A stretch of DNA of 64,000 nucleotides from Peptococcaceae bacterium (GCA_023249405.1 JAHFCR010000002.1:1-64000); one strand, 5' to 3'. Counted from the first letter of the stretch, positions 5,560 through 25,339 are shown. Made by a program: numbers and translations. The notes: generated by a model not told the origin, from the sequence alone.

Positions 5560-7242
5560 TTACTCACCGGTCACCTGCACCCCGGGCCCCCGGTCGTTTC
5601 GCAGGAACAGGGCCGGGATCACTCCGAACAGGGTGACCGCGGCGGCAATGATGAAGACATCATCGATTCCCTTGACAAAGGCGGCCCGGGCCACGATCCC
5701 CTCCAGGTAGGCAGTCCCCAGCAATTTCACCTGGGCGCTGATCGCCCCCCCGCCCATGTACGCCCCGGCCTTCTGGAAGAAGTCGTTCAGGGCCAGGTTC
5801 CAGGGGGTGACGTTTGTGGCCATCTGCGCACTGTGAACGGCGATCCGCGTGTTCATCATCGAAGTCAGCACGGCGATCCCGAAGGAACTGGCCACCTGCC
5901 TGATGATGTTGGTCATGGCCGACCCCCGGCCCACCAGTTCGGTGGGCAGCACCGCCATCGCCGCTGTCTGGGCGGGCATGTTGGCCAGGGCGATCACCGC
6001 CCCGCGCACCATCACCCAGTAGATTATGGTGGTCGTGGCGGTTTCCAGGCTCAGGCCGTGAAAGACATAGGTCATGTAAGCCAGGGCGGCGATGCCGCAG
6101 ACCGCCAGCAGCCGCGGCCCGAACCGGTCATAGAGATTGCCCGCGATCGGCATCATCACCGCAGACGTCAGGGCGCCCGGCATCATCAACAGGCCGGTGT
6201 CCATCGCCCCCAGGCCCCGCACTTCCTGGAGAAACAGCGGCAGGTAGAACATCCCGGCATACAGCCCGATGGTAGTGATCACCACCATCAGGTTGGCCAT
6301 GGTGAAGGTCGGATACCGGTACACCCGCAGTTCCAGCAGCGGGTTGGCCGAGGTCAGTTCCAGGTAGATGAACAGGATGATGCAAACGGCGCTGGCATAG
6401 AGCAGGAGGGTGATCGATTCCGAGTGCCAGCCCCAGTCGGCGCCCTTGCTCAGCGCCAGCAGCAGGCAGAACAGCCCCGCCGCCGAAGTCAGCGCCCCCC
6501 CGATGTCCAGGCTGCCCGCCTCCCGGGTCTGAAACTCCGGTATCAGGAACAGGGACAGCAGGATCCCGATTGCCCCGATCGGCAGGTTGATGGTGAAGAT
6601 CCAGCGCCAGTTGACGTATTCGACCAGGTAGCCGCCCAGGGTGGGGCCGATCGCCGGAGCGACCAGCAGGGCAATCCCGAAGATGCCCATCCCGCCGCCG
6701 ATCCGCTCCTTGGGCACCATCCGGAAGATCATCGCCATGGTGGTGGGCATGATCATCCCCCCACCCATGGCCTGGATGACCCGGGCGACGATCAGGGAGT
6801 TGATGCTCCAACTCATGGCGCACAGCAGTGAACCGAAGACGAAGACGGCCATCGAAAAAATATACAGCCGCTTGAATCCCAGCTTGTCGCCCAGCCAGCC
6901 GCTCAGGGGCACCACCACGCCCATGGCCAGCATGTAGATGGTGACCACCCACTCCACGGTGCTGGTGCTGGCGTTGAACACGCTCATAATGGTGGGGACG
7001 GCCACATTGACGATGCTGGAGTCCAGGATCGACATGAAGGCGCCGATCAGGGCGACCAGCACCGGGATGATCCAGGGCCCGATCTGCCCGCCGTTGCCGG
7101 CTTCAGCAGTCTTGCCATTACCCGGCACGCCATGGCTGCCGCCTGCGGCTGGTTCCCGACCGGTCCCGTTCGGCGCCGCGCTCCCGCTCGGCAGCCCCGA
7201 GTTCCCGGACTGCCCAAACTTTTTGCCGTTTTTATCGCTCAA
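5560..7242 (-). CDS. DHA2 family (EmrB/QacA-like) MFS efflux transporter
   Basis: A 14-TM major facilitator protein of 560 residues. It shows the DHA2 signature near TM1 (LDSSIVNVAVPTIM), motif A (GWLGDKLGFKRLYIFS) and motif C (GIFGIALLVAPAIGPTLGG). A glycine/proline-rich cytosolic tail of about 50 residues precedes TM1, longer than usual. I chose the TTG at 7242, seven bases after AAGGTG; a TTG six bases upstream is also open but sits on the ribosome site. The start overlaps the stop of the marR gene, so the two are translationally coupled. Proton-driven export of toxic organics is the family role. Confidence 0.92.
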   Translation of the reverse strand: MSDKNGKKFGQSGNSGLPSGSAAPNGTGREPAAGGSHGVPGNGKTAEAGNGGQIGPWIIPVLVALIGAFMSILDSSIVNVAVPTIMSVFNASTSTVEWVVTIYMLAMGVVVPLSGWLGDKLGFKRLYIFSMAVFVFGSLLCAMSWSINSLIVARVIQAMGGGMIMPTTMAMIFRMVPKERIGGGMGIFGIALLVAPAIGPTLGGYLVEYVNWRWIFTINLPIGAIGILLSLFLIPEFQTREAGSLDIGGALTSAAGLFCLLLALSKGADWGWHSESITLLLYASAVCIILFIYLELTSANPLLELRVYRYPTFTMANLMVVITTIGLYAGMFYLPLFLQEVRGLGAMDTGLLMMPGALTSAVMMPIAGNLYDRFGPRLLAVCGIAALAYMTYVFHGLSLETATTTIIYWVMVRGAVIALANMPAQTAAMAVLPTELVGRGSAMTNIIRQVASSFGIAVLTSMMNTRIAVHSAQMATNVTPWNLALNDFFQKAGAYMGGGAISAQVKLLGTAYLEGIVARAAFVKGIDDVFIIAAAVTLFGVIPALFLRNDRGPGVQVTGE

Positions 7243-8061: not shown

Positions 8062-9336
8062 ATGGCTGATTATCGTCAGATGTGGACCGATCTGGGAATG
8101 GATCTGGAAAAGCATGACCAGCTGTGCGCCGTGCTGCCGGAGGCTTTCGGAGGCATCTACCTGTCGCAGGAGAACCGCCCCGAGGGCATGGGTTTCTTCG
8201 ATTTCGTGGTGTCGGAGATCCACGGGGTGCGGCCGGCGGAATTGATCGAACACCAGAAACAGGGCGGCAAGGTCTTCGGCACTTTCTGCGTCTATGTGCC
8301 GGATGAAGTGATCTTCGCCGCCGGGGCGATCGCCACCGGTCTCTGCGGGGGCTCGCAGTTCTGGGTGCCCGGCGGTGAGAAGGTGCTGCCCGCCAACACC
8401 TGCCCGCTGATCAAGGCCTCGGTGGGAGCACGCCTGGACCGCACCTGTCCGTTCTTCCGCATCGCCGACATGTTTATCGGCGAGACCACCTGCGACGGCA
8501 AGAAGAAGGCCTGGGAGATCTTGAACCAGGACGTTCCGGTCTATGTGATGGACCTGCCCCAGATGAAGCGGGCCAAGGATGTGGCCGCCTGGGAAGATGA
8601 GATCAGACTGCTGATCGCCAAGGTGGAGGAGTTCACCGGCAGCAAGGTGGCCCCGGAGGCCTTGTCAGACGCCATCAAATTGATCAATAACAAACGGGCG
8701 GCCCTGGCCCGGCTATACAAGACCCGCCAGAGTTCACCGGTGCCGATCAGCGGCAAGGACGCCCTGCTGGTCAGCCAGATCGCCTTCTATGACGACCCGG
8801 CCCGCAACGCCACCATGGTCAACAAGCTGTGTGACGAGTTGGAACAGCGGATCGTTGACGGCAAGGGCGTGTTCCCGGCCGATGCTCCCCGGATCATGAT
8901 CACCGGCACCCCGATGGCCATCCCCAACTGGAAGCTGCACCACATCGTGGAGAGCAGCGGAGCGCCGGTGGTAGTCGAGGAGTCCTGTACCGGGGTCCGC
9001 TACTTCGAGCACCAGGTGGATGAGAGCCAGACCACTCTGGAAGGCCAGGTCAAGGCCCTGGCCGAACGCTACATGCAGATCAACTGTGCCTGCTTCACCC
9101 CGAACCCGGGCCGGATCGAGGACATCCTGCGCCTGGCCAGGGAGTACAGGGTGGACGGCGTGATCGACTACAACCTGCAGTTCTGCAATCTCTACACCAC
9201 GGAGAGCTACCTGGTGCAGCAGGCCCTCAAGGAGGCCGGCATTCCGTATTTGCGCCTGGAAACAGATTACAGCGAACAGGATTTCGAGCAGCTCAGGACC
9301 CGGGTCGGGGCTTTCCTGGAGATGCTCGGAAAGTAG
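8062..9336 (+). CDS. Double-cubane-cluster anaerobic reductase (2-hydroxyacyl-CoA dehydratase D/HgdB-like)
   Basis: This 424-residue protein belongs to the HgdB/BcrC/FldC superfamily. It has many conserved cysteines (GTFCVYVP, TGLCGGSQF, ANTCPLIK, DRTCPFF, GETTCDGKKKAWE, EESCTGVRYF, INCACFTPNPGR, LQFCNLYTTES), more than the three per subunit of classical dehydratases. That matches the double-cubane cluster proteins (DCCP) that hold an [8Fe-9S] cluster and reduce small molecules such as acetylene. Such enzymes need an ATP-driven activator (HgdC/DCCP-R type); none is in the window. A GGGAGAGAG site precedes the ATG. The next gene, DUF3343, starts nine bases after its stop, so the two are co-transcribed. 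The true substrate is unknown. Confidence 0.88.
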   Translation: MADYRQMWTDLGMDLEKHDQLCAVLPEAFGGIYLSQENRPEGMGFFDFVVSEIHGVRPAELIEHQKQGGKVFGTFCVYVPDEVIFAAGAIATGLCGGSQFWVPGGEKVLPANTCPLIKASVGARLDRTCPFFRIADMFIGETTCDGKKKAWEILNQDVPVYVMDLPQMKRAKDVAAWEDEIRLLIAKVEEFTGSKVAPEALSDAIKLINNKRAALARLYKTRQSSPVPISGKDALLVSQIAFYDDPARNATMVNKLCDELEQRIVDGKGVFPADAPRIMITGTPMAIPNWKLHHIVESSGAPVVVEESCTGVRYFEHQVDESQTTLEGQVKALAERYMQINCACFTPNPGRIEDILRLAREYRVDGVIDYNLQFCNLYTTESYLVQQALKEAGIPYLRLETDYSEQDFEQLRTRVGAFLEMLGK

Positions 9337-9345
9337 GTCATCAGG

Positions 9346-9609
9346 TTGCCGGAACAGGAGAGCTGCGACTATTACATCCTCTTTCCCAACCATCAGGAGG
9401 GCTTGCGCCTGCACCAGGAACTGAAGGCAGCGGGGGTGCCGTGCATGATTGCGCCCACTCCCCGCTCCGCCAGCAGCTTCTGCGGCATGTCGCTACGGCT
9501 GGCGGAGGACCAGGTGCCCTCCGCCATGCAGGTGATCGCCGCCAGTGGTGTTATAATAGAAGGAATCGCCCGCATTCAGCGTCAGCCCTTTCAATACCGG
9601 GCCACCTGA
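9346..9609 (+). CDS. DUF3343 protein (putative Se/S carrier)
   Basis: An 87-residue protein with the DUF3343 pattern: YYILFPNHQEGLRLHQELKA, then PRSASSFCGMSLRL with one conserved Cys, ending in a short alpha/beta unit. Family members lie beside selenium or sulfur transfer genes and are annotated as putative Se/S carriers. Here the gene sits between the double-cubane reductase and a cysteine-desulfurase-like gene. The start is a TTG; the overlapping end of the upstream gene supplies GGAAAGTAGG as a ribosome site. Its role is inferred from family and context. Confidence 0.8.
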   Translation: MPEQESCDYYILFPNHQEGLRLHQELKAAGVPCMIAPTPRSASSFCGMSLRLAEDQVPSAMQVIAASGVIIEGIARIQRQPFQYRAT

Positions 9610-9635
9610 ATCGGGTATGAGGGGAGGCCGCCAAT

Positions 9636-10781
9636 TTGGGCGTCATCTATCTGGACAATGCTGCCACCTCCTGGCCGAAACCGGAAACCGTCTATCAGTC
9701 AATGGATCGGTTCAATCGCCAACTGGGCGCCAGTCCGGGACGCGGCAACCACAGCCGCACCCTGGAGGCGGGATCGCTGCTGCTGGAAACGCGGGAGGCT
9801 CTGGCGCGGTTATTCAACGTCTCCGACTGCGCCCGGATCATCTTCACCGCCAACGCCACCGAGTCCCTCAACCTGGCTTTGAAGGGCATCCTGAAGCCCG
9901 GCGACCACGCGGTGATCAGCAGTATGGAACATAACGCCGTAGCACGGCCATTGCACACCATGGAACGCTCGGGGGTGTCCTTCTCGATAGCCGCCTGCGC
10001 TCCGGACGGCAGCCTGGATCCCCACGACGTGGAGTCGGCCATCCGGGAGAACACCAGGCTGGTCTGTCTGCTGCACGCCTCCAACCTGACGGGCACGATC
10101 ATGCCGATCGCCGAGGTCGGCGCCATCGCCCACCGGCGCCATGTGCTGTTTCTGGTGGACGCCGCCCAGACCGCAGGCATCATCCCCATCGACGTGCAGC
10201 GCCAACAGATCGATCTGTTGGCTTTTCCCGGCCACAAGGGGCTGTTCGGCCCCCAGGGGACCGGCGGCCTCTATATCGGGCCGGGGCTGGAGATACGAAC
10301 GCTCAAAGAGGGCGGCACCGGATCGCAGTCTGAGCAGATCGAGCAGCCCGAATTCCTGCCCGACAAGTTTGAGAGCGGCACGCACAACACTCCGGGCATA
10401 ATCGGGTTGGGGGCAGGGGTAAAGTTTGTCATGGAGACGGGGCAGGAACAGATCCTCCGCCACGAAGGGCAGCTTGCCGAGATGCTGATCTCCGGGTTGC
10501 AGGAGATCCCCGGAGTCACCGTCTATGGACCGGCAGACGGCAGCCGGCGCCTGGCGGTAATCCCGTTCAACGTTGAAGGGCTGGATTGTGGAGAAGTGAG
10601 CTTCGCCCTGGACCAGGGAGGGATTATCGCCCGTTCGGGCCTGCACTGCGCCCCTCTGGCCCACCGCACCATCGGCATCATCGAGCAGGGCGCCTGCCGC
10701 TTCAGCCCGGGTTTCTTCAATACAGCAGAGGAGATCGAGCGGGTGATCCGGGCAGTGTACGCCATTGCCGCCAACCACTAA
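9636..10781 (+). CDS. Class V aminotransferase, cysteine desulfurase/selenocysteine lyase-like
   Basis: A PLP enzyme of 381 residues in the NifS/SufS/CsdA family. It has the N-terminal YLDNAATSWPKP motif, the substrate-loop SPGRGNHSR, the PLP-lysine region (LLAFPGHKGLFGPQGTGGLY) and a late cysteine (SGLHCAP) where desulfurases carry the persulfide. The start is a TTG with AGGGGAGG eight bases upstream. It is third in the operon with the double-cubane protein and DUF3343 and is followed directly by a terminator. It probably releases S or Se from (seleno)cysteine and passes it to DUF3343, but which element is used cannot be decided here. Confidence 0.88.
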   Translation: MGVIYLDNAATSWPKPETVYQSMDRFNRQLGASPGRGNHSRTLEAGSLLLETREALARLFNVSDCARIIFTANATESLNLALKGILKPGDHAVISSMEHNAVARPLHTMERSGVSFSIAACAPDGSLDPHDVESAIRENTRLVCLLHASNLTGTIMPIAEVGAIAHRRHVLFLVDAAQTAGIIPIDVQRQQIDLLAFPGHKGLFGPQGTGGLYIGPGLEIRTLKEGGTGSQSEQIEQPEFLPDKFESGTHNTPGIIGLGAGVKFVMETGQEQILRHEGQLAEMLISGLQEIPGVTVYGPADGSRRLAVIPFNVEGLDCGEVSFALDQGGIIARSGLHCAPLAHRTIGIIEQGACRFSPGFFNTAEEIERVIRAVYAIAANH

Positions 10782-10792
10782 ACAACAGCAGG

Positions 10793-10819
10793 CCCCGGCA
10801 TTGCCGGGGTTCTTTTTTT
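10793..10819 (+). terminator. Intrinsic terminator of the double-cubane operon
   Basis: The palindrome CCCCGGCATTGCCGGGG (10793-10809) is followed by TTCTTTTTTT. It stands 12 bases after the desulfurase stop and separates this operon from the convergent LysR gene. Confidence 0.9.
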
Positions 10820-10848
10820 GGGCGCCGCCGTTGGCGCCGGGACGCTGC

Positions 10849-11757
10849 TCACTCGGCAGTGGCTGCCGGCAGGGAGGCCTTCATAAAATCGATAAAAGTC
10901 TGCAGCAGATGATCCGGCACCCGGTTCTTCCTGGTGATCAGGTACAGGCCGCGCATTCTGGGGAGGCCGGCGATGCGCACCGCCGCCAGGGCGCCGGACT
11001 GGATCCGGGGTTGGGCGGCCACGGTGGAGAGCAGCGACACTCCGAGGCCAGCCGCCACAGCGCTGAGAACTGCATCAGTGCTGCCCAGTTCCATGCGATA
11101 CTTCAGGGCGCCCGGGTCGATGCCGCGCTCCTGCAGCCACTGCTCGAACACTGCCCGGGTGCCCGAACCCGGTTCCCGGACCACCATCTGTTCGGCGCAG
11201 AGTTCCTCCAGGTCGACCGTCTCCCATCCTTCCCAGCGATGTCCCCTGGGCACCACCACCACCAGTTCGTCATTATAGATCAGCTCGTGCTGCAGATTCT
11301 GGCTGTTGATCTGCACGCCGATCACCCCGGCGGCGAATTCACCTGCCAGGACGCGGCGCGCCACCTCTTTGCTGTCGCTGATCTCCAGGCTGACCGTGAC
11401 CTCCGGGTACCGCTGCTGGAAGGCCCCGAGCAACCGGGGCAGGATGTATTCTCCGGGGATGGTGCTGCCCCCCAGCAGCAACTCGCCCTGGACCGTGTCC
11501 GCCAGATCGCGCACCTCGGCGAGGCTCTTGTCGATCGTCTGCAGAATGCGCTGCCCGTAACGGTAGACGATCTTGCCGGCCTCGGTCAGCTGTGGTTCCC
11601 GGCCGCGGCGGTACAGCAGCGGCGTCCCGTATTGGGCCTCCAATGCCCGCAGCTGCTTGCTGACCGCCGGCTGCGAGATCTCCAGGGCCTCGGCGGCCCG
11701 GGTCAGGCTTTTCTTGTCCATGATCGTGATCAGAGTTTCCAACCAGCTAAGATTCAT
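10849..11757 (-). CDS. LysR family regulator (possibly selenium/sulfur metabolism)
   Basis: A LysR-type regulator of 302 residues: N-terminal helix-turn-helix (SLTRAAEALEISQPAVSKQL) and a two-lobed periplasmic-binding-like effector domain (about 90-295). It lies convergent to the desulfurase and directly downstream of larE on the same strand, 27 bases away. Related LysR proteins in Clostridia accompany selenium-metabolism genes, which would fit this neighbourhood, but that is from memory of the family and not proven by the sequence. I chose the ATG at 11757; a TTG four codons earlier is open. Confidence 0.88.
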   Translation of the reverse strand: MNLSWLETLITIMDKKSLTRAAEALEISQPAVSKQLRALEAQYGTPLLYRRGREPQLTEAGKIVYRYGQRILQTIDKSLAEVRDLADTVQGELLLGGSTIPGEYILPRLLGAFQQRYPEVTVSLEISDSKEVARRVLAGEFAAGVIGVQINSQNLQHELIYNDELVVVVPRGHRWEGWETVDLEELCAEQMVVREPGSGTRAVFEQWLQERGIDPGALKYRMELGSTDAVLSAVAAGLGVSLLSTVAAQPRIQSGALAAVRIAGLPRMRGLYLITRKNRVPDHLLQTFIDFMKASLPAATAE

Positions 11758-11784
11758 GTCTGCCACCAACTTTATCCTGTTTTT

Positions 11785-12675
11785 TTAGCCTCGCTGCCGC
11801 TCTGTCGATGCCAGCACCTCGTTCAGGCTGCCGGTCCGGTATCCGTCCAGATCGAGAGCGGCATAAGTAAAGCCGCAGACCTTGATCCGCCGGGAGATCT
11901 CCTGCAGCAGTTCCGGTTTCAGCACCTTGACCAGTTCCTCCGGGGCAACCTCGATCCTGGCAATCTGACCGTGGTGCCTGACCCGGACATTCTCCAGGCC
12001 AAATTCAATCAGTATCGCCTCTGCACGGGCAATCTGCTCCAGCTTCTCCAAGGTCAGCGGCTCTCCGTAGGGAATGCGGGACGCCAGGCAGGCCTGGGCC
12101 GGCAGGTTCCAGTTGGGCAATCCTAATTGCCGGGCCAACCGCCGTACTTCCGGTTTGGCCAGTCCGCACTCCAGCAAAGGGCTGTGCACCGTCTCGAAGC
12201 CGCGGATGGCGGCCATGCCGGGGCGGTAATCACCGCAGTCGGAGCGGTTCGTGCCGTCCAGCACCGCCTGGTAGCCCTCTTCCCCGGCGATCGCCGTCAA
12301 CAGTCCAAAGGTATTGCTCTTGCAGTAAAAACAACGGTTGGACGGATTGGCTGCTATAGCTTCATCCTGCAGTTCGTCGGTCTTCACGATCCGGCGCCGG
12401 GCGCCCATATCCGCAGCCACCGCAGCCGCCGTTCCCTGGTCGCGCTCCGGCATCAACGGCGAGACCACTGTCACCGCCAGCACGTTCTCCAGACCCAGGG
12501 CCTGAATAGCCGTCCTGAGCACCAGCGAGCTGTCGACGCCGCCGGAAAAGGCCACGATTACCCGCGGCCACTGGGATATGTAAGACTCCAGGGCCATCAG
12601 CTTGCGCCGGAGATCCTCGCCAACCCCCGCATCGCCCTGCAAACTGTCATCGACACCAACGTTCATGGCAGTCAC
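11785..12675 (-). CDS. larE: LarE-type ATP-dependent sacrificial sulfur transferase
   Basis: A PP-loop ATPase of 296 residues with SGGVDSSLV at about residues 42-50, the NRCFYCK Cys pair, DGTNRSDCGDYRPGM, and the ACLASRIPYG motif that contains the LarE sulfur-donor cysteine. LarE transfers sulfur to the pyridine dicarboxylate precursor of the nickel-pincer cofactor of lactate racemase. The extra Cys pair suggests the [4Fe-4S] variant, which can recycle sulfur. No larA, larB or larC is in the window, so the substrate may be elsewhere or different. The start is GTG, with GAGGAG upstream. Confidence 0.9.
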   Translation of the reverse strand: MTAMNVGVDDSLQGDAGVGEDLRRKLMALESYISQWPRVIVAFSGGVDSSLVLRTAIQALGLENVLAVTVVSPLMPERDQGTAAAVAADMGARRRIVKTDELQDEAIAANPSNRCFYCKSNTFGLLTAIAGEEGYQAVLDGTNRSDCGDYRPGMAAIRGFETVHSPLLECGLAKPEVRRLARQLGLPNWNLPAQACLASRIPYGEPLTLEKLEQIARAEAILIEFGLENVRVRHHGQIARIEVAPEELVKVLKPELLQEISRRIKVCGFTYAALDLDGYRTGSLNEVLASTERQRG

Positions 12676-12725
12676 TTCTCTCCTCGTTGATTAACAAAGA
12701 TCCAAAATCGAGCGGCGTCTCCATA

Positions 12726-13850
12726 CTACGAAATGCCAGAACCGTCGCCGCATTTTATGATGGCGCCTCCGCCTAAAACTACCTCCCCATCATACAGGAC
12801 CACTGCCTGGCCCGGAGTGATCGCCTTCTGAGGGGTCTGGAAGTCCACCCGCAGCCGGTCTTCCCCCTCCCGGACGGCCACCGCCTCCACCAGCGGCGCC
12901 TTGTAACGGATCTTGGCCCTGACCGGGCGCGGCCGGCTGAAAGGCACACCCGAGATGTAAATGACATCATCAGCGATCAGGCTATGCTGGTAGAGATCCC
13001 TCTCCGCCCCCACCCAGACGGTGCCAGTTTCCGGATCGATCCGGGTGACGTACAGCGGATGCTCATAAACCAGCCCCAAGCCCTTGCGCTGTCCTACGGT
13101 ATAACGGCAGATACCCCGGTGCCGGCCGAGGATCTCCCCGTTGATGTGCCGGAAGTACCCCTCGGGGCCTGTGGTCCCTGTCCGCCCGGCTACAAAGTCA
13201 GAGTAGCTTTTTTCGGAGACAAAGCAGATCTCCTGGCTCTCAGCCTTCGCTGCCACCGGCAGTCCGGCCTGCAGGGCGATCTGCCGCACTTCCCGCTTAT
13301 GGAGATCCCCCAGGGGAAACAGCACATGCTCCAGCTGTTGCTGAGTGATCTGATAGAGGGCGTAGGTCTGGTCCTTGGATTGGTCTGCCGCCATCTGCAG
13401 CTGCCATCCGCCGCCGTCCTCCCGGCCGATGCGGGCGTAATGGCCGGTGGCCAGATAGGCGGCGCCCAACTCCTGCGCCTTGCGCAGCAGGGTGCCAAAC
13501 TTGAGGTAGCGGTTGCAGGCGATGCACGGGTTGGGGGTGCGGCCGGCGTGGTATTCCCGGCAAAAGTAACCGATCACCCGGTTCTCGAACTCCTCCCGGA
13601 AATCCAGCACGTAGTGGGGAATCTGCAACTTCCAGGCCACCTGCCTGGCATCATCCAGGGCCGACAGGCCACAACAGCTGCGATCACCCGACCCGCTATC
13701 GCGGGTACCCCGGCGCGGCCAGACCTGCATGGTGACGCCCACCACCTCGTAACCCTGGCGCTGCAACAGCAGCGCGGCCACAGCGCTGTCCACCCCGCCG
13801 CTCATGGCCACCACCACCCGTCCCTCCGGCCGGCTGCCGTTCACCGGCAT
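12726..13850 (-). CDS. mnmA: tRNA-specific 2-thiouridylase MnmA
   Basis: A PP-loop enzyme of 374 residues that thiolates U34 of tRNAs for Lys, Glu and Gln. It has the VVVAMSGGVDSAVAALLL ATP site, the NPCIACNRYLKFG catalytic-Cys segment, the second catalytic Cys in SQEICFVSE, and the TVGQRKGLG central loop and C-terminal beta-barrel. Length fits the family. The gene overlaps fdhD by 10 bases and has only a weak ribosome site, so it is probably translated by coupling. Confidence 0.94.
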   Translation of the reverse strand: MPVNGSRPEGRVVVAMSGGVDSAVAALLLQRQGYEVVGVTMQVWPRRGTRDSGSGDRSCCGLSALDDARQVAWKLQIPHYVLDFREEFENRVIGYFCREYHAGRTPNPCIACNRYLKFGTLLRKAQELGAAYLATGHYARIGREDGGGWQLQMAADQSKDQTYALYQITQQQLEHVLFPLGDLHKREVRQIALQAGLPVAAKAESQEICFVSEKSYSDFVAGRTGTTGPEGYFRHINGEILGRHRGICRYTVGQRKGLGLVYEHPLYVTRIDPETGTVWVGAERDLYQHSLIADDVIYISGVPFSRPRPVRAKIRYKAPLVEAVAVREGEDRLRVDFQTPQKAITPGQAVVLYDGEVVLGGGAIIKCGDGSGIS

Positions 13851-16168: not shown

Positions 16169-16624
16169 CTATCCGGCGATCTCCCTCATCACCAGATCCA
16201 GGATAAAGGGCAGGCTGGCCGACACCTCGGGGGTCAGGTCCAGGCCCACCTCGATCTGGCCGGGTTCGACTCCGATGATCACCGCTGCCGGCATGTACCC
16301 ATCCATCAGTTCCAACATCTTCAAGGCATCCATGATGCCGATGTCGTGCAGCGAGATGACGTCATAATCAGCCTGCTGCTGGAAATCCTGTGGCGTCAGG
16401 CGGTAAACTGCCCCGGGCGGCTCCCCGCCCTTCAAGGCATCCACGATGATGATCTTCTCCGCCCCCGAGAGCAGCGGCAGCAGATCGCAACCGGCCGTGC
16501 CCCCGTCGATGACCTCCACATCCGGAGGCAACCGGCGATCTTCCAGCGCCCGGACCAGATGCACCCCGATCCCATCATCCCTCAATAACAGGTTGCCAAT
16601 CCCCAACACAATCTTCCTGCCCAT
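16169..16624 (-). CDS. [NiFe]-hydrogenase maturation endopeptidase (HyaD/HycI family)
   Basis: A 151-residue protease with the GIGNLLLRDDGIGVH N-terminal motif, the DGGTAGCDLLPLL loop, and SLHDIG, which carry the Asp and His ligands that recognise nickel. It removes the C-terminal tail of the large subunit after Ni insertion. The hydrogenase structural operon on the same strand (22177-25339) is its obvious client, but five unrelated genes lie between them. GGGGAG precedes the ATG. Confidence 0.93.
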   Translation of the reverse strand: MGRKIVLGIGNLLLRDDGIGVHLVRALEDRRLPPDVEVIDGGTAGCDLLPLLSGAEKIIIVDALKGGEPPGAVYRLTPQDFQQQADYDVISLHDIGIMDALKMLELMDGYMPAAVIIGVEPGQIEVGLDLTPEVSASLPFILDLVMREIAG

Positions 16625-16769: not shown

Positions 16770-17582
16770 TTAGGCAACCGCCGGTTTCTGCACATACTGG
16801 AAATACACCATCGCGAACAGCAGGTACCATATGGGAAAGAGCGCGTAGATAGTCCAGAAGTGCGCTGTCCACAATGCTTTTTCACCCCAAAACAAGCCGC
16901 TGCAAAGGATGATGACGATCCTGATCACGTTCTGCAGCCAGGTGCCCGCCACTCCGAACAGAAAGATTGGCACTGCCCTCTGCCAGGGCAGGGGCAGGTC
17001 CAGCACCATAAACATGAAGATGGAAACAAACACAGCCATCGTTGCGGGGCCGGCGCAAGCGCCGGCGACCATGACCGACATCAATTTGCCTGATGGCGCC
17101 ATGAACTGGAACACCTGGCCATTTACCGCTATGTGCAGGCCGATCAGTCGCAACAGCCAGGCCACCGGTAGCACGGAAGTGCTGGCATAGCCGGCATCCA
17201 GGTAGGTCTCCACCAGCAGGGGAAAATAAATTGTAAAAGCGTAAGCCCCGAGCATGGCAACCGGGATCATCGCTCCCGGGCCGAAAAAGATAGCAAAAGC
17301 GCCCGCGCAGGTGGCCAACAGGCGCAACATCAAGAATGGCGCAGTCGCAGGCACAAAAAAAGCCAGCACTGCGATCATCAGCCCTGAAGCAATGAACACC
17401 GGGGTAGGCATGAGCTTCATGTCCACCCAGACCTGTTTCCTCTTGGCGTAAACCATCAAGATAGCAAGCGCCAGCACTCCCCAGGGAGCCGTGTGGTATG
17501 AGCCAAAGATATAGCCGATAGACAGGGCGCCGGTCAATTCGGCCCAATTCGCCCTGGAAAATAACAACATGATCAACAGCAT
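16770..17582 (-). CDS. Archaeosortase/exosortase family transpeptidase
   Basis: A 270-residue, roughly 8-TM protein. In the C-terminal half it carries the exosortase/archaeosortase catalytic pattern: Cys176 in GACAGPATM, Arg221 in QNVIRIV, and His241 in WTAHFWTIYALFP, each at the start of a membrane helix. These enzymes cleave short C-terminal sorting signals and attach the protein to a lipid or glycan. The gene immediately upstream encodes a surface protein with just such a signal, so it is a dedicated enzyme-substrate pair. The open frame reads further upstream to about 17645 with hydrophobic codons but no ATG, GTG or TTG, so the N-terminus may be longer than drawn. Such proteins are common in archaea and Gram-negatives and rare in Firmicutes. 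Confidence 0.85.
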   Translation of the reverse strand: MLLIMLLFSRANWAELTGALSIGYIFGSYHTAPWGVLALAILMVYAKRKQVWVDMKLMPTPVFIASGLMIAVLAFFVPATAPFLMLRLLATCAGAFAIFFGPGAMIPVAMLGAYAFTIYFPLLVETYLDAGYASTSVLPVAWLLRLIGLHIAVNGQVFQFMAPSGKLMSVMVAGACAGPATMAVFVSIFMFMVLDLPLPWQRAVPIFLFGVAGTWLQNVIRIVIILCSGLFWGEKALWTAHFWTIYALFPIWYLLFAMVYFQYVQKPAVA

Positions 17583-17656
17583 GCTTAATGCTGCCCATAA
17601 AACCAGCCTAACTCGTACCGATCTGATATATATCGCTCTCCATCGTCAGGGTATTA

Positions 17657-19828
17657 CTACGCAAGCCTCTCCCAGTATCTCTTACGGAACCAGGCATAGC
17701 CGGCAGCGCACATCCCCAGTACCAGAATGGCGGCAACTGGTGTCGGGAACTCGGGAATGGCCGAGTCCTCCACTTCGAAAGTTGCATTGATGACTTGGGC
17801 GACAATGTGGCCGTTGCTGTCATCTTCATGCACATCTACGGTCCAGGTGCCAGGCTGGGCGTTACTGCTGCTGCCCTGATTCAGATTGCAATAGCTGGTC
17901 AGGTTGCCGTCATTATCCAGTATTCCAGAATCGACATACGTAAAACCACCATCAGGATCACTATACTTGACATAGTAACAGTTGGGAGCCGGATGTGGAT
18001 CCAGGCCGGAGGCCGTCACATTGACCACATTATTGCTGCCGCTGAAAGAACCGGTAATCTGACCGGAGCTGTCGGTGATGGTGACGGTGGCCAGGCGAAT
18101 TGTGCGGGATACCGTGGTAGAGTTGCCGGCATTATCCGTCGCTGTCACTGTAATGGTGTTGGCGCCTGTAGTAAGGCCTCCAACCGTGCAGTTAAAGTTG
18201 CCATTATTGTCTACGTATGCATTTATGCCATTCACGTTCACTGCGGCCAGGCCCGAGCCGTCATCCGAGGCAGCGCCGCTCACGGCAATAATATTCGTAT
18301 TCACGTAGCTACCATCGACCGGCTGGTCAACTGAGAGCGATGGAGGGGTGTTGTCCCCGGCAACGGCAAGGCTGAGGTTTCTGGAGGCATTGATACTGTT
18401 GGCATCGATGACTTTGACGGTAACGGTGAAGGAAGAACCGGATGTGGTGCTGGGCCTGCCGGTGATCGCCCCGTTGGAGGCGTTGATGCTCAGGCCGGGC
18501 GGGAGGCCGGTGGCTGACCAAGTGTAAGGGGTCAGGCCGCCGCTGGCGGTGACGGTGGCGCTGTAGTAGACGCCCTGGGCAGCGTTGGGCAAACCGGTGG
18601 TGGTAATCTGTAACGGATAGACAGTAAGACTGAAACTCCTGGTAGCCGTGTTGGCGTTCCTGTCAGTGACAGCAATAGTGACGCTGGCCGGAGAGCCGGA
18701 CGTGGTGCTGGGCCTGCCGATGATCAGCCCGGTGTGGGTGTTGATGCTGAGGCCGGCCGGAAGGCCGGTGGCTGACCAACGATATGGACGCAGGCCGTCG
18801 CTGGCGGTGACAAAGACCCAGTAAAATTTGCCTACTGTGGCGTTGGGTAAACCGGCAGTGGTGATTGTCAGTTGAGGGTGAACGGTCAGGCTGAGATTCT
18901 TGGTGGCGGTGCTGCCGCTATTATCGTGAACACTGATCGCGACGCTGAAGGGGGAGCCGGCGGCCGTGCTGGGCGTACCGGTGATCGACCCGGTGGAGGT
19001 GTTTATACTCAGGCCCCCTGGAAGGCCGGTGGATGACCAGGTATAGTTTCCATCACCGCCGGTGGCAGCCAGGATATAGCTGTAGAATACACCCTGGGTG
19101 GCTTCGGGAAGCGAAGTGCTGGTGATCTGTAGCCGACCCATCCTGGTCGCCGTGATAGTGTATGCCTTGATGGTGGCGCCGTCCTGGGCGGTGACCACCA
19201 CACTGATGGTGTTAGAGCCCACGATCAAACTGATTGGGCCGGATGCTGCGCCGCTGGCTTGGGTCGTGCCATTCACCTTGATGGCAGCGGTGGCATCGGC
19301 CGCGGTCGGAGTGACAGTGACGCTGGTAACGGTGTTGGCCACGCTGTCGGCGTAGCTCAGGGTGCCCGTGGCAAAGGTTGGCGTCAGGGTACCGGCGCTG
19401 ATGGTCAGGTTGCTGAGATCGGCGATGCTGCTTTTTGCCCTAGTCACCGTGATGGTGTAGGTCCTGGGAGCGCCTTTTTGAGCGGTGACCCTCACCCTGA
19501 TAATGTTGGATCCCACGTTCAGGCTGATCAGGCCGGATGCTGCGCCATTGGCCACGGTCGTGCCATTCACCTTGATGGTAGCGATGGCATCGGCCGCGGT
19601 CGGAGTGACAGTGACGCTGGTAACGGTGTTGGCCACGCTGTCGGTGTAGGAGACGGTATCGGAGGCGAAGGACGGGGTCAGGGTACCGGCGCTGATAGTA
19701 AGATTGCTCAGGTTGGCGTTGCTGCTAAGCGCCTCCGCCGCCCACGTAAAAAACAGGGGGGCCACAATAGCCGCCAAGATCAGGCAACAGAGCGACATAC
19801 GCTTTATTATCGTTCTAAAGAATGCCAT
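17657..19828 (-). CDS. Secreted multi-domain surface protein with PEF-CTERM-like sorting signal
   Basis: A 723-residue exported protein with an N-terminal signal peptide (about 1-34). It then has two cadherin-like beta-sandwich repeats (about 40-225), three putative Ig (He-PIG) repeats (about 230-500; motif LPxGLSINxxxGxIxGxPS) and a bacterial Ig-like domain (DNTPPSLSV..., about 505-590). A unique domain with two Cys follows. The C-terminus is tripartite: IPEFP (691-695), a hydrophobic helix (about 697-714), and a basic tail (RKRYWER). IPEFP plus helix plus basic cluster is the PEF-CTERM pattern of archaeal surface proteins processed by archaeosortase. The archaeosortase-like gene lies directly downstream. 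A GGGAGGGAG site precedes the ATG. Ligand or adhesion target is unknown. Confidence 0.87.
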   Translation of the reverse strand: MAFFRTIIKRMSLCCLILAAIVAPLFFTWAAEALSSNANLSNLTISAGTLTPSFASDTVSYTDSVANTVTSVTVTPTAADAIATIKVNGTTVANGAASGLISLNVGSNIIRVRVTAQKGAPRTYTITVTRAKSSIADLSNLTISAGTLTPTFATGTLSYADSVANTVTSVTVTPTAADATAAIKVNGTTQASGAASGPISLIVGSNTISVVVTAQDGATIKAYTITATRMGRLQITSTSLPEATQGVFYSYILAATGGDGNYTWSSTGLPGGLSINTSTGSITGTPSTAAGSPFSVAISVHDNSGSTATKNLSLTVHPQLTITTAGLPNATVGKFYWVFVTASDGLRPYRWSATGLPAGLSINTHTGLIIGRPSTTSGSPASVTIAVTDRNANTATRSFSLTVYPLQITTTGLPNAAQGVYYSATVTASGGLTPYTWSATGLPPGLSINASNGAITGRPSTTSGSSFTVTVKVIDANSINASRNLSLAVAGDNTPPSLSVDQPVDGSYVNTNIIAVSGAASDDGSGLAAVNVNGINAYVDNNGNFNCTVGGLTTGANTITVTATDNAGNSTTVSRTIRLATVTITDSSGQITGSFSGSNNVVNVTASGLDPHPAPNCYYVKYSDPDGGFTYVDSGILDNDGNLTSYCNLNQGSSSNAQPGTWTVDVHEDDSNGHIVAQVINATFEVEDSAIPEFPTPVAAILVLGMCAAGYAWFRKRYWERLA
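19267..19654. repeat. 294-bp period duplication in the surface-protein gene
   Basis: The blocks beginning at 19267 and 19561 are almost identical for about 85 bases and encode the two cadherin-like domains (98-residue period). Near-identity at the DNA level points to a recent duplication or gene conversion between repeats. Confidence 0.75.
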
Positions 19829-19879
19829 TGCTTTTCTCCCTCCCGCTGATGGCCGGTGAACAGGATCATACCTTTCTCA

Positions 19880-20605
19880 CTAACTCGTGCTCAGGATCAT
19901 GATGATTTTGGTGTAGACGATCCCCACGAAAACGATCAACAGAATCCAGGTCAGGATGTTGAAACGGAGCCTTAACCGCTGCAGGAAGAGCGCACCTCCC
20001 GACGCCATTCCGACGGAGCTATCCTCGGAGGCCGCCCCCGCCAGTTCCAGAAAGATCAGTAGCAAGATCAGGGTGAGAGAGAACACCAGACCGGCGTTCA
20101 GGTCAGCTGCTGCGCTAAAGTTGTTCTGGTAGTATGCGTTGGTCACCATGGAGCTCATCACAGTGGTGGAAAAAGAGGCAAAAGAGATGAAGCTGCTGCA
20201 AACCTGAGGCGCGAAGGGCGGGATGGAGACCGCTTTTTCGTAATTTCCTGCGGCAGATGAAGTCCTCACCACGAAGCTGACTTTATCGCCGATCTTTACA
20301 GGAGAGGGGTAGGCATACTGGTAGGTCTTGCTGGAGAGTGGCGCCAGAGTTGTTTGTCCTGCCTGTAATAAGTCGGCGTTGGCATAGAGCTGGCAGTTCA
20401 CTACCTTGCTTAAAAGAGAGGGATTGTTCAGTTTCAGGGTGACCAGCAAGGGTTCCCCCAGGCGGGGTGTTTCCGGCAGCACCGTGATGCTGGCGGGCGC
20501 GCCGGTTCCTCTCAGGGTCAGACAGAAGGCGCCTAAAAGGATGATCCCGGCCCAGACGACAACCAGCTTGAAAAGCAGACCCAACAACTTGTTTCTTTCC
20601 CCCAT
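19880..20605 (-). CDS. Membrane protein with extracytoplasmic beta domain (sortase cassette)
   Basis: A 241-residue protein with an N-terminal membrane helix (about 8-32), an Ig-like extracytoplasmic domain (LGEPLLVTLKLNNPSLLSK and following, about 45-140) and two C-terminal helices (about 165-190 and 210-236). No family is recognised; the middle looks like a beta-sandwich of the CARDB type. It lies between the CPBP protease (17 bases upstream) and the PEF-CTERM protein. The ATG at 20605 has GGGGAG upstream; the same frame is open much further but overlaps the CPBP gene and is not coding there. It may help deliver or hold the sorted protein. Confidence 0.7.
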   Translation of the reverse strand: MGERNKLLGLLFKLVVVWAGIILLGAFCLTLRGTGAPASITVLPETPRLGEPLLVTLKLNNPSLLSKVVNCQLYANADLLQAGQTTLAPLSSKTYQYAYPSPVKIGDKVSFVVRTSSAAGNYEKAVSIPPFAPQVCSSFISFASFSTTVMSSMVTNAYYQNNFSAAADLNAGLVFSLTLILLLIFLELAGAASEDSSVGMASGGALFLQRLRLRFNILTWILLIVFVGIVYTKIIMILSTS

Positions 20606-20622
20606 GAATCTCACTCCCCTCA

Positions 20623-21462
20623 CTAGAAGAAAACCCTGAAGAGATGCGGGTATATGACAACCAGGACAACGTTGTTGATGCCATGCACCAGAATAGGCAA
20701 GAACAGACTTTTTGTTTTTAGATAGAGCGACCCGAAGATCAGGCCGGCAATGAACACGAAAAACAGTTCCGGCACCGAGCGCCAGGTGAGGTGCATGATG
20801 GTAAACAGCAGGGAGGCGCCGATCAGCCCCCCCCGCCATCCGAAGAGATTGACCATGTCCCGCTGGATCAACCCCCGGAAGAGGAGTTCCTCTCCCAGCC
20901 CCACAAAGACAGTCATGTAGAGCAGATTCAGAACTAAATAACCGGCCGAAATGCTCGGATAAGCGGGGGCAGGTCTGAGGATCATATATTCGACCAGGCC
21001 CGTGCAGCAGCCTAGCGCCGTACCTCCCAAAAGGTAATAAGGCAGACTGGCGGTTGTGGGAAGCCTGCCGAACAACTCTTGTAAAGAAAGGTTTTTCTGG
21101 TAGATGTGAAAGAAACACAGGGCGATGATGCACGAGTATACGGCTGGTAACAGATATTCCTGGTTGATGAAGAACCAGGGCAGGGATGAGGTGAACAGGA
21201 CGTAGACGGGCACCAGGGCCATAGACTCCACACATAAGGTCAGCCTGTCTTCCGATGACGGTATCGCCAACAACAGGTAGAGCAGGAAGCTGATGGCCAG
21301 GGAGAGCACAATGCCATAGGCAGCGTTGCGGTAAGCAAAAACAAACTCGCTGATACCAATAAAGACCATGATCGCTGTAATTATAAGGGCGTACAATGTT
21401 AACTGGCGCCGGCTATATGATTGCTTAATCACTGCCATATCGCTTTCCTGAATATGGAACAA
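20623..21462 (-). CDS. CPBP family intramembrane glutamic protease
   Basis: A 279-residue, 8-TM protein with the CAAX-protease/bacteriocin-processing motifs: GEELLFRG (EExxxR), LLFTIMHLTW (FxxxH) and HGINN. These residues form the active site of Rce1-type proteases. Members cleave prenylated or bacteriocin-like peptides or protect against them. Being second in the archaeosortase cassette, it could process the sorting-signal remnant or a cassette partner; that is inference. The TTG at 21462 has GGGAGGAG eight bases upstream; an ATG eight codons in is also possible. Confidence 0.85.
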   Translation of the reverse strand: MFHIQESDMAVIKQSYSRRQLTLYALIITAIMVFIGISEFVFAYRNAAYGIVLSLAISFLLYLLLAIPSSEDRLTLCVESMALVPVYVLFTSSLPWFFINQEYLLPAVYSCIIALCFFHIYQKNLSLQELFGRLPTTASLPYYLLGGTALGCCTGLVEYMILRPAPAYPSISAGYLVLNLLYMTVFVGLGEELLFRGLIQRDMVNLFGWRGGLIGASLLFTIMHLTWRSVPELFFVFIAGLIFGSLYLKTKSLFLPILVHGINNVVLVVIYPHLFRVFF

Positions 21463-21527
21463 AACAGCTTCTCCTCCCCGGGCAGCTTAATTAAAATCCC
21501 CGGTCTCTTCATGCCATTGCCGGCAGG

Positions 21528-21920
21528 TTAGATGCCGGATAAATAATAAGTCATGGTTTCCAGCGGGGTTGTTTCCGGCTCCCTATAAATATTTACCAGC
21601 ACTTTCCCGTCGCCGGCCGTACTGATCCTGAGAGGCTGATTGTAGATATAGGCGCCGTCTTTTTTTATCAGGACGGGTTCCTGGTATCTGTTCTGGCCAA
21701 GCATGGTCTGAACACGATAAGAAACATCCCTGTGTTCATGGTTAGCCAGTTGGATCTGGAGAATCCAATGGTCTCTTGTCCTAAGAAGCTGCATTTTCTG
21801 GATGGTGCTCGCTTCCCGATCCCCGGCGAGGGGCCGAAAAAAGCTCACTGCCAAAAGCAGCACCAGTGTAATCAAGGAAAGGGTGTAAAATAGCCTGAGA
21901 CGATGCGGCCAACTCTTCAT
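21528..21920 (-). CDS. Small membrane-anchored protein, first gene of the sortase cassette
   Basis: This 130-residue protein has one N-terminal membrane helix (about 9-30), then a predicted beta-rich extracytoplasmic part rich in charged and aromatic residues, ending YYLSGI. No family is recognised. GAGG lies six bases before the ATG. It is the first gene downstream of an AT-rich promoter region and 66 bases before the CPBP protease gene, so it is most likely part of the same transcript. Confidence 0.65.
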   Translation of the reverse strand: MKSWPHRLRLFYTLSLITLVLLLAVSFFRPLAGDREASTIQKMQLLRTRDHWILQIQLANHEHRDVSYRVQTMLGQNRYQEPVLIKKDGAYIYNQPLRISTAGDGKVLVNIYREPETTPLETMTYYLSGI

Positions 21921-22176: not shown

Positions 22177-22830
22177 CTAGCTTTTTACAGCCCTGGCTCC
22201 AGGGGCCGTTGGCGCTTGCTTGCCGTGGCCGGCATGGGATTTAACCGGACGCAGGCCGGAGAACATGCCGTAGATGTTGGCCATGCCCTCGGTGAAGTCC
22301 AGGTACATATGGCCGGCCACGCAGTAGACGAAGATCCAGGCCACGATGTAGTGGATGATCCGGATCCACTTGGCGCCGCCGATCCACACGTCCCAACTGG
22401 CAAAAACGCTTGGCCAGTATAGGATGATGCCCGTGAAGATCTGAATGATCAGCAACGGGGCAAAGGCCGCGTACATCCCCTTCTGGCCGGGGTTGTACTT
22501 CTCGCCGAAATCCGGCTCCTCATCGCTGACGAACATGTAATACTTCATCAGCTTGATCATATTCCCCATGTCGGCCTTGCGCATGGCGAAGTTCTTGTAA
22601 TCGCCGGTGGCGAAGGCGTAGTAGAGCCGCCCGATCAGACCGGCAATCACGCAGTACATGAACACGAAGTGCACCTTGCGGGCCCAATCCATATCCAGGA
22701 AGAAGAACCGGAAGAAGCCATCAGGATTATGGATGTAAAAACCCGAGAAGATCAGCATGAATATGGAGACGGCGTTCCACCAGTGGAAGAAACGCACTGT
22801 CAGGGTATGGCGGGGTTCCAGTCTGGCCAA
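22177..22830 (-). CDS. [NiFe]-hydrogenase cytochrome b subunit (HyaC-like)
   Basis: A membrane cytochrome b of 217 residues with four main helices and histidines suited to heme (RFFHWWNAVSIF, WIRIIHYIVAWIFVYCVAGHMY). It anchors the hydrogenase at the membrane and passes electrons from H2 to menaquinone. The start is TTG with GGGAGGGG upstream, 13 bases after the large-subunit stop. It is third in the operon. Confidence 0.92.
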   Translation of the reverse strand: MARLEPRHTLTVRFFHWWNAVSIFMLIFSGFYIHNPDGFFRFFFLDMDWARKVHFVFMYCVIAGLIGRLYYAFATGDYKNFAMRKADMGNMIKLMKYYMFVSDEEPDFGEKYNPGQKGMYAAFAPLLIIQIFTGIILYWPSVFASWDVWIGGAKWIRIIHYIVAWIFVYCVAGHMYLDFTEGMANIYGMFSGLRPVKSHAGHGKQAPTAPGARAVKS

Positions 22831-22843
22831 TTATATCCCCTCC

Positions 22844-24277
22844 CTAATAGACCCGGAATTCGCGTACTTTCCGGTCCGGGGTGATCACGTGCACGGCGCA
22901 GGCGATGCAGGGGTCGAAGGAACGCACCACACGCACTAGCTCGATCGGGTTGTTGGGGTCCTTAACCGGTGTCCCGATGAGAGCCTGCTCGATCGGGCCG
23001 GGGTGATCGCTGTCGTCGCGCGGGCCGGCATTCCAGGTAGTCGGGACCACGGCGTTGTACTTGGCGATCTTGTAATTTTCGATCTTGATCCAGTGGCCCA
23101 GGGCGCCGCGCTCGGCGTCGGTGAGGCCCATGCCGTGAGCTGACTTCGGCACCTCATTCGGAGCGCAGGTCGGTTCGCCCGGCTTGAGCTGCAGCAGCCA
23201 TTCCATCAGGGAGTGAGCAACCTTGGACGCATCCAGGGCACGGGCGAAGTGGCGGCCCATGACGGAGAAGGCCTTGTCGCCCAAGCCCCTGACATCGGGC
23301 TGCTGGGCTATCCACAGCTTGGCCAGCGGGCCGACTTCCATGACGTTGCCGTCATACCGGGGCGCCTTCAGCCAGGAGTAACCGGCTGCCTTGGTCGGGT
23401 CCGGAGTGATCACGCTCTCGGTCGGAAGCTTGCTGCCGCCGGATCCGTCCACGTACCAGGAGTGCTTGACATCCTCGGTGATCTTGCCGGCATCGAAAGA
23501 GCCATCCTGGCCGTTGACGTAGACACCGGCCGGATAGAGCCTGGTTCCGTTGTTATCCTGCGGGAAAACGCCGTAGGAGAGGAGATTCTTGCAGCCCCGG
23601 CCGATATCCAGCCAGTCACTGTAGACTCCGGCCACCGCTTTCACATCGGCCACGTAGACATTGTCGATGAAGCTGATCAGGTCTTGCAGCAGATACTTGC
23701 TCTGGACGATCTTTTCCACATCAACATTGGCGGTGACGCCGCCGGGTACGATCGCCCTCTGGCCGGGAGCGCGGCCGCCCCAGACAGCCAGCAGCTGGTG
23801 GGCCTTCTTGCGCATCTCCAGGGCCTGCAGGTAGTGATTGACCGCCGCGGCGTTGATGGCGTCCGGCAGGCGGTAGTCGCCCTGATATTGCGGCAGCAGC
23901 GGATCTACACCCGCCGGCGCCTTAACATAGTCCAGAGCCGCCAGGTGATAGAAGTGCAGGATGTGTGACTGCAGGTAGTTGGCGCCCTGGATGATGTTGC
24001 GCACGATCCGTCCATTGTCCGGAATCTTGTCTGTCAATCCCAAGGCGTCATCCAGCGCATAGGTAGCCGCCGTGGCGTGGGCGATCGGACAGACGCTGCA
24101 GATCCTCTGGACATATTCCTGAGCGTCCCGGGGGTCATGGCCCTGCAGGATCAGCTCCAGGCCGCGGAACAGTGTACCGGTGCTTTTAGCGTCGGTTACT
24201 TTGCCGCCGTCCACCTCGCACTCGATCTTCAGGTGGCCCTCAATTCTGGTAATGGGATCAACGATTACTTTTGCCAT
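22844..24277 (-). CDS. Uptake [NiFe]-hydrogenase large subunit
   Basis: A 477-residue catalytic subunit of the group 1 (membrane-bound H2-uptake) type. Ni-Fe ligands come from RICSVCPIAH (Cys60, Cys63) and DPCIACAVH (Cys457, Cys460, His463). The 14 residues after His463 are removed by the maturation protease. The usual first motif reads CGVC; here it is CSVC, a known natural variant. Start ATG with GGGGGTGA upstream, 15 bases after the small-subunit gene. It is exported as a complex through the small subunit's Tat signal. Confidence 0.95.
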   Translation of the reverse strand: MAKVIVDPITRIEGHLKIECEVDGGKVTDAKSTGTLFRGLELILQGHDPRDAQEYVQRICSVCPIAHATAATYALDDALGLTDKIPDNGRIVRNIIQGANYLQSHILHFYHLAALDYVKAPAGVDPLLPQYQGDYRLPDAINAAAVNHYLQALEMRKKAHQLLAVWGGRAPGQRAIVPGGVTANVDVEKIVQSKYLLQDLISFIDNVYVADVKAVAGVYSDWLDIGRGCKNLLSYGVFPQDNNGTRLYPAGVYVNGQDGSFDAGKITEDVKHSWYVDGSGGSKLPTESVITPDPTKAAGYSWLKAPRYDGNVMEVGPLAKLWIAQQPDVRGLGDKAFSVMGRHFARALDASKVAHSLMEWLLQLKPGEPTCAPNEVPKSAHGMGLTDAERGALGHWIKIENYKIAKYNAVVPTTWNAGPRDDSDHPGPIEQALIGTPVKDPNNPIELVRVVRSFDPCIACAVHVITPDRKVREFRVY

Positions 24278-24292
24278 GTTTGTGTCACCCCC

Positions 24293-25339
24293 CTACTCTT
24301 CTTTGCCGCTGAGACGGCCTTTTGCTGCGTTGCCTACCAGGTGGGCAGCCACACCGGCCACCACCACCGCTCCCAGGGTCAGCCCGACGGCATCAGCGCT
24401 GGCGTTGATGTTGGGCAGCGAGACATTCGGGTAGCGCTGGTAGATCGGGGAGGACCCATCCGGGAAGTTCATGTCGGTGCAGGCCATGCATGGGGCGTTA
24501 GCCTTGATGCACCAGTTCACGCCACCATTCCACTGCCGGTCGAAGGCATCGCAGGCGGCAAAGGGGCCCTTGCAGCCCAGTTCCAGGAGGCAGTAAGGCT
24601 CGCTGAAGCTCTTGGCGAACTTGCTGTTGTCGAAGTATTGGCGTCGCGGGCAATTGTCGTGGATGATCCGGCCAAAAAACATGGTCGGACGGTTGTACTT
24701 GTCCAGCGGCGGCAGTTTTTTATAGAGCAACACATGCGCCAGGCTGCCGACCATCCAGTCAGGATGCGGCGGGCAGCCGGGAATATTGATCACCGGTGTG
24801 GTGATGCCCTCTTTTTTGAAGAAGTCCAATACGCTGATGCAGCCGGTGGGGTTCGGTCGGGCAGCGGGGAGGCCGCCAAAAGCGGCGCAGGTGCCGACTG
24901 CCAGCACGGCGTTGGCTTTCTTGCCCAGTTCCCTCACCCTGTCCATAAAGGTGATCGGATTCCCGTCTTTCTCGCCTACGGTGCAGAACATACCGTTGGC
25001 CGCCGTGGGAACAGCGCCCTCCACCACCAGGAAGAAACCGCCGGCAGCCGCCGTGTCGTCGATGACCTTCAAGGCCAGATCGCCGGCAGCAGCCGATACG
25101 TTGGGATGGAACTTGAGATCGATGACATCGGTCAAGATCTTTGCGATTGCGGGTTGTTCCGAGTTCAGCAGGGAGACGGAACAACCGGTACAGCTTGCGC
25201 CCTGAATCCAGAGCACCGGGGGATTTCCTGCAGCTGGAGCAGCCTCTAGCAGGTGCGGCAACAGCGCCTGCGACAGGCCCACTGCGGCAGCAGAACCCGC
25301 GCATAACTTCAGGAAATCACGCCGACTAAGTCCCTTCAC
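24293..25339 (-). CDS. Uptake [NiFe]-hydrogenase small subunit, Tat-exported
   Basis: This 348-residue iron-sulfur subunit begins with a twin-arginine signal (LSRRDFLKLCAGS). It has the proximal cluster motif GASCTGCSVSLL, CAAFGGLPAARPNPTGC and NIPGCPPHPDW, then the distal and medial cluster ligands (HDNCPRRQYF, CLLELGCKGPFAACDAF, WCIKANAPCMACTD), and a C-terminal membrane anchor (about 318-340). It is the first gene of the operon. The GTG start has GGAGGG six bases upstream. Confidence 0.95.
   Translation of the reverse strand: MKGLSRRDFLKLCAGSAAAVGLSQALLPHLLEAAPAAGNPPVLWIQGASCTGCSVSLLNSEQPAIAKILTDVIDLKFHPNVSAAAGDLALKVIDDTAAAGGFFLVVEGAVPTAANGMFCTVGEKDGNPITFMDRVRELGKKANAVLAVGTCAAFGGLPAARPNPTGCISVLDFFKKEGITTPVINIPGCPPHPDWMVGSLAHVLLYKKLPPLDKYNRPTMFFGRIIHDNCPRRQYFDNSKFAKSFSEPYCLLELGCKGPFAACDAFDRQWNGGVNWCIKANAPCMACTDMNFPDGSSPIYQRYPNVSLPNINASADAVGLTLGAVVVAGVAAHLVGNAAKGRLSGKEE

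Follow-up and report, generated by a model that had tools for sequence, protein, structure and literature searches.

A five-gene cassette of the exosortase/archaeosortase superfamily

The window analysed here is a 64,000-nucleotide stretch from a Peptococcaceae bacterium (GCA_023249405.1, JAHFCR010000002.1:1-64000), and the system in question is a cassette of five co-directional genes on its minus strand, at positions 16770-21920. From the 16770 end to the 21920 end, these genes encode Xrt, an enzyme of the exosortase/archaeosortase superfamily (16770-17582, 270 residues); Sub, its candidate secreted substrate, with immunoglobulin (Ig)/cadherin domains and an IPEFP-helix-RKR end (17657-19828, 723 residues); MP3, a membrane protein with an Ig-like domain (19880-20605, 241 residues); a CPBP/Rce1-like glutamic intramembrane protease (20623-21462, 279 residues); and SMP, a small membrane protein (21528-21920, 130 residues). 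All five open reading frames (ORFs) announced for this interval in the initial annotation exist. In the models and literature available to us, the five-gene kit matches no family model as a system and is an undescribed module, to which, judged by sequence, two conserved membrane proteins without a family model, SMP and MP3, belong. The earlier description of a self-contained and undescribed cassette holds as well; all five families, or most of them, recur together elsewhere.

Xrt is placed in the superfamily by profile searches with TIGR04178 (35.5 against a cut-off of 23) and PF09721 (36.6 against 25.7). The predicted Cys176/Arg221/His241 pattern is likewise conserved, the three residues being invariant in an alignment of 11 homologues from Bacillota, Chloroflexota and archaea. 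Xrt falls, however, below the cut-off of every named subfamily tested in NCBIfam: ArtC (TIGR03762; 33 against 100 bits), XrtG (TIGR03110; 22.2 against 102.75), XrtX (30.9 against 170), XrtY (17.8 against 160) and CrtC (21 against 225). Since NCBIfam holds XrtG, an exosortase family known from Gram-positive bacteria, an exosortase in such a host is not new in itself. The start codon of xrt is uncertain, because upstream of the listed ATG the reading frame and family homology continue for about 11 codons (hidden Markov model match at 16779-17615).

A conserved tail on unrelated ectodomains

Sub has a signal-peptide-like N-terminus, two cadherin-like, three He_PIG and one glucodextranase-B-like domains assigned by Pfam, a membrane-proximal domain and a sorting tail, SAIPEFPTPVAAILVLGMCAAGYAWFRKRYWERLA (17657-17764, minus strand), built of IPEFP, a hydrophobic stretch and a C-terminal RKRYWERLA. 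Across cassettes the substrate ectodomains are unrelated (Ig, NHL/DUF5050, SLH with CarboxypepD_reg, SBBP, RCC1, disaggregatase repeat), and what the substrates have in common is the membrane-proximal domain and the tail. The tail is therefore conserved as had been anticipated, in the reverse of a pattern in which the protein is kept and its end is not. A secreted protein with a matching tripartite tail (motif, helix, basic end) is detectable in 10 of the 11 enzyme-bearing genomes; in the remaining one, G408, the Xrt contig is short and ends inside the CPBP gene. In a Chloroflexota metagenome-assembled genome (MAG), Xrt and its substrate even share one stop-free frame of 670 residues (L012, 7908-9920), in which a signal-peptide-like helix joins enzyme and substrate; an internal ATG makes separate translation possible.

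In the tail alignment, conservation extends from IPEF to a Cys and a Tyr located 16 and 20 residues after the Ile, respectively. The helix Cys is present in all 13 core IPEF tails and the Tyr in nearly all; the Cys is usually followed by a small residue, with an aromatic one four positions on. Two tails of G413 are of an IPEL type with Ala replacing the Cys, CPBP being kept there, and the Cys is absent from five ArtC-type control tails and from the divergent archaeal clade. Given the Ala in both G413 tails and the absence in that clade, the Cys was rejected as an invariant feature and is not essential to the family.

The more specific label of the initial annotation, an archaeosortase/PEF-CTERM system, did not survive. 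The resemblance to archaeosortase C/PEF-CTERM (TIGR03762/TIGR03024) lies in the superfamily, the Cys/Arg/His triad and a tripartite tail with a PEF motif. Apart from the superfamily signature, ArtC is also the named model that scores best with Xrt, and all 11 homologues match it weakly; such likenesses would be expected if an ordinary ArtC/PEF-CTERM system had been acquired laterally from archaea. We regard such an origin as very improbable. Both Xrt and the tail fail the curated models (the latter with 10.3 against 23 bits for PEF-CTERM), so the cassette is not the archaeal system; moreover, in G410 a true ArtC (275.8 bits) and a true PEF-CTERM protein (23.0) are neighbours, separately from the five-gene system of that genome and with no SMP, MP3 or CPBP at the ArtC locus. 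The cassette further differs in adding CPBP, two novel membrane proteins and few dedicated substrates, in the helix Cys of its core tails, and in occurring in Bacillota and Chloroflexota besides archaea.

CPBP protease and accessory membrane proteins

The predicted CPBP intramembrane protease is clearly recognizable (PF02517, 71.6 against 22.4 bits). Its EExxxR, H and HxxxN motifs (E191, E192, R196, H224, H260 and N264) are present, and these six residues do not vary, either among 10 homologues or in three divergent archaeal proteins. CPBP scores below every named subfamily cut-off tested, including TIGR03008, the PEP-CTERM-linked CAAX protein (27.2 against 81).

CPBP proteases are themselves able to sort tail-tagged proteins: members of the family act on MYXO-CTERM proteins as myxosortases (MrtX/MrtJ/MrtS), sometimes in dedicated two-gene pairs with their substrate (PMC11980579). 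By analogy, CPBP could be the sorting enzyme of the cassette and Xrt a secondary one, attaching for instance a new group. In line with this notion, the nearest tail-sorting families to the window CPBP are those of Mrt (MrtS, 42.8 bits; Mrt_core, 40.5), and the near-invariant Cys of the core tails recalls that of Mrt substrates. Nevertheless, we find this arrangement unlikely. All Mrt cut-offs are missed (100 bits in the case of Mrt_core), the tail Cys lies deep in the helix rather than before it as in MYXO-CTERM, and the G413 tails have lost the Cys although CPBP is retained. In addition, IPEF is a motif of the exosortase/archaeosortase kind, and the natural fusion links the substrate to Xrt and not to CPBP. 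The cassette also differs from the myxosortase systems by the presence of an exosortase.

A joint role of an exosortase and a CPBP protease has precedent in the four fusions of EpsH with a CAAX protease noted in 2006, which pointed to a joint function (PMC1569441). The cassette resembles these fusions and the exosortase E/protease of the VPEID-CTERM system (TIGR04162) in combining the two activities; it differs from them in that these are encoded by two separate genes and that the tail motif is another, and the proteins of the window have no TIGR04162 match.

SMP is predicted to consist of an N-terminal transmembrane helix (residues 6-28) followed by seven strands forming an Ig-like beta-sandwich (AlphaFold2, mean pLDDT 81), whose fold matches in the PDB are generic Ig-like sandwiches only. 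DUF1616 (PF07760) is weakly matched by six of eight SMP homologues (best E 9.5e-4), and the window protein scores 13 bits against its cut-off of 31.6. MP3, the start of which was corrected from a longer frame to the ATG at 20605, is predicted to have a transmembrane helix, an Ig-like domain and further C-terminal helices (pLDDT 61; about 75-80 in the Ig part). It matches no Pfam or NCBIfam family above cut-off and is 42-60% identical to its homologues in other cassettes. The Ig-like domains of both proteins are probably extracytoplasmic. The similar strand pattern raised the idea that SMP and MP3 are sequence paralogues, which was discarded (hhalign probability 4.7%, in the wrong region).

A second cassette in the same genome

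Contig C148 (L006) of the same genome bears a second complete cassette, with Sub at 8818-10512, SMP at 10579-10992, CPBP at 11043-11957, MP3 at 11985-12710 and Xrt, 53% identical to the window Xrt, at 12774-13661. About 2 kb upstream of it, at 6701-6940, lies a decayed third substrate of which only the tail, FTVADGAIPEFPTVLSFLAVTVICGPIYRWLRRKA, is left. A genome-wide search for other tails, as proposed at the outset, gave 19 matches to an IPE[FY]-type DNA pattern, of which three are genuine tails, all of the Sub family. The genome thus does not hold one enzyme with one substrate, as had been supposed; it has two cassettes with one target each plus the decayed tail, and in G405 one enzyme has two targets. 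In summary, superfamily, triad, tail and gene co-occurrence stood from the initial reading, and none of the three observations that it had named as refuting it was made, whereas the ArtC/PEF-CTERM label and the single enzyme-substrate pair did not stand.

The host of the window cassette is probably Gram-positive, as its Bacillota relatives and the genes of the window suggest; the latter include PgpH and Era homologues in an order typical of Firmicutes. Since no sortase (PF04203) was detected in the genome, the contrast drawn earlier with LPXTG sortases is real here.

Distribution of the five families

One scan of GTDB genomes returned ten loci, in Bacillota (Peptococcaceae, Clostridiales), Chloroflexota including Dehalococcoidia, Methanophagales, Methanosarcinales and Candidatus Argoarchaeum, and was followed by profile searches and analysis of wider neighbourhoods. 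About a dozen gene clusters of other genomes contain all five families or most of them, in shuffled order. For example, G405 holds Sub-SMP-MP3-CPBP with a divergent Xrt and a second set, Sub-SMP-CPBP-MP3, without Xrt; the families are also present, in varying order, in G404, G406, G407, G409, G410, G411, G412 and G413. In G407 MP3 was not found by profile searches or in wider neighbourhoods, and in G411 and G412 the families are split over contigs. The expected conservation of the five-gene set is thus seen in the second cassette, in Bacillota MAGs, in Chloroflexota and in archaea of the anaerobic methanotrophic (ANME) type.

In a sample of the archaeal phylum, 12 of 394 genomes had a match at E<=1e-40, some of them enzyme-only. 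Three genomes of this sample (G588, G747 and G786) carry a divergent Xrt together with SMP and MP3, CPBP being on the opposite strand, and an LPEF or VPEF protein was identified in G588 and G786. The corresponding count for Chloroflexota was 1 in 400. Nearer to the host, a close Xrt was found in none of 19 further genomes sampled from its genus or family, and in no other genome among 399 sampled in the phylum.

Xrt, CPBP and MP3 appear to have diverged together, because their identity matrices correlate (r 0.69-0.79, a value reached in 0 of 2000 permutations), a correlation that shared species history also yields.

Several archaeal and bacterial loci deviate from the common layout. A Sub-SMP-CPBP-MP3 cluster of G404 ends in a 63-residue Xrt fragment (L096, 8099-8290) that looks like a decayed duplicate enzyme, a full-length Xrt lying on another contig. 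One archaeal stretch (L090, G500) combines a Cys-rich protein of 504 residues, which has a VPEFP tail, with one MP3 and three SMP-like ORFs; a related Xrt is encoded on the other strand. Another clade of archaeal Xrt (L084 and L086-L089, from G423, G433, G443, G452 and G414) has RCAG at the active Cys in those members read, and neither CPBP, SMP nor MP3 was found near these Xrt genes.

Proposed mechanism and significance

Family membership, intact catalytic residues, the pairing of enzyme and tail and the recurrence of the five families are established at the sequence level. We consider it likely that the cassette, which would represent an unnamed subfamily of the exosortase type, is a dedicated system for surface anchoring, in which Xrt would cleave the tail and anchor Sub to the membrane. 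We infer the cleavage, nucleophile, anchoring, order of steps and roles of the partners as follows. The N-terminal signal of Sub would direct its export, and the C-terminal helix together with the basic tail would keep it in the membrane. Cys176 of Xrt, with Arg221 and His241, would then cut at IPEF on the outer face; a membrane amine, probably the head group of a phospholipid, would resolve the acyl-enzyme, so that the ectodomain stays anchored by lipid. CPBP would work on this tail too, by removing the helical stub once it is released or by cutting a second time, and SMP and MP3 may present the membrane-proximal domain of Sub to the enzymes. In this regard, archaeosortase A of Haloferax cuts the tripartite PGF-CTERM tail of its substrates and links them to lipid; the mechanism proposed for it involves a Cys in the active site and an amine as nucleophile (PMC7157517). 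The presumed cut-and-anchor mechanism would be alike; the motif differs, however, and ArtA, which requires PssA/PssD, acts on several targets, with no CPBP partner described there (PMC7157517).

Some observations weigh against this model. The divergent archaeal Xrt of G747 has Glu in the His241 column. Among the genes of the window cassette none was identified as serving lipid synthesis, which makes the nucleophile a guess. The roles given to SMP and MP3 are drawn purely from predicted folds, at low confidence for MP3. Finally, all the named relatives carrying the system are MAGs, and for this reason the apparent loss of MP3 in G407 and of linkage in G411 and G412 may be assembly gaps.

Xrt might instead be a hydrolase freeing Sub into the medium, which would turn the cassette into a release system. 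No wall-linkage gene was identified in the cassette, and several of the ectodomains (propellers, Ig) would suit released proteins. We hold this improbable, as ArtA substrates end up lipid-linked (PMC7157517), exosortase-type enzymes appear to leave their substrates on the surface (PMC11980579), and the three SLH domains of the G405 substrate fit a cell-bound protein.

A bolder version of the anchoring model is speculative and, taken whole, rather doubtful. In it, the tail would be processed by two proteases, with the exosortase cutting its helix from one face of the membrane and CPBP from the other. The Cys conserved in this helix in the core clade would be lipidated and serve CPBP as a recognition site of the CAAX kind. 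SMP and MP3 would become the first known obligate partners of an exosortase, and the module as a whole would have passed between archaea and Gram-positive bacteria.

The chemistry of exosortase/archaeosortase systems is difficult to investigate, because as a rule their substrates are numerous and dispersed and their partners undefined. In the present cassette an enzyme, a single substrate, another protease and two membrane proteins without a name are grouped compactly; it occurs in two domains of life and in one case as a natural enzyme-substrate fusion, and the system could therefore be rebuilt gene by gene in a laboratory host. It also suggests a route of surface attachment in a probable Gram-positive without detectable sortases.

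The module further offers a candidate surface-anchoring enzyme for ANME-1-type archaea, which have been reported to lack ArtA, ArtC and PEF-CTERM (PMC5244752). An ANME-1-type MAG (L009, Methanophagales; L101) holds the cassette, as well as PEF-CTERM-like tails on another contig.

Genomic context

The window cassette sits on a 128.7-kb contig, between hyaC and hyaD. Contamination from an archaeon during binning was ruled out, given the length of the contig and the flanking hyaC, hyaD and MGDG-synthase-like genes, which are adjacent, with no cassette, in a same-genus genome; a phage or plasmid origin was set aside as well, there being no viral or plasmid match. The Xrt tree has little resolution and shows no direction of transfer between domains of life. 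In the same-genus genome (G002), hyaC, hyaD and the MGDG-synthase-like gene are consecutive, with about 310 bp between hyaC and hyaD, the gap that the cassette fills in the window. In nine other genomes of the family hyaC and hyaD are also close, within about 0.2 kb in seven, about 0.4 kb in one and about 0.8 kb in one. Because the two genes adjoin without the cassette in relatives, the latter would most simply be a lineage-specific insertion. In the window, the NiFe hydrogenase operon (small and large subunits, cytochrome b) is split from its maturation protease gene hyaD (16169-16624 and 22177-25339).

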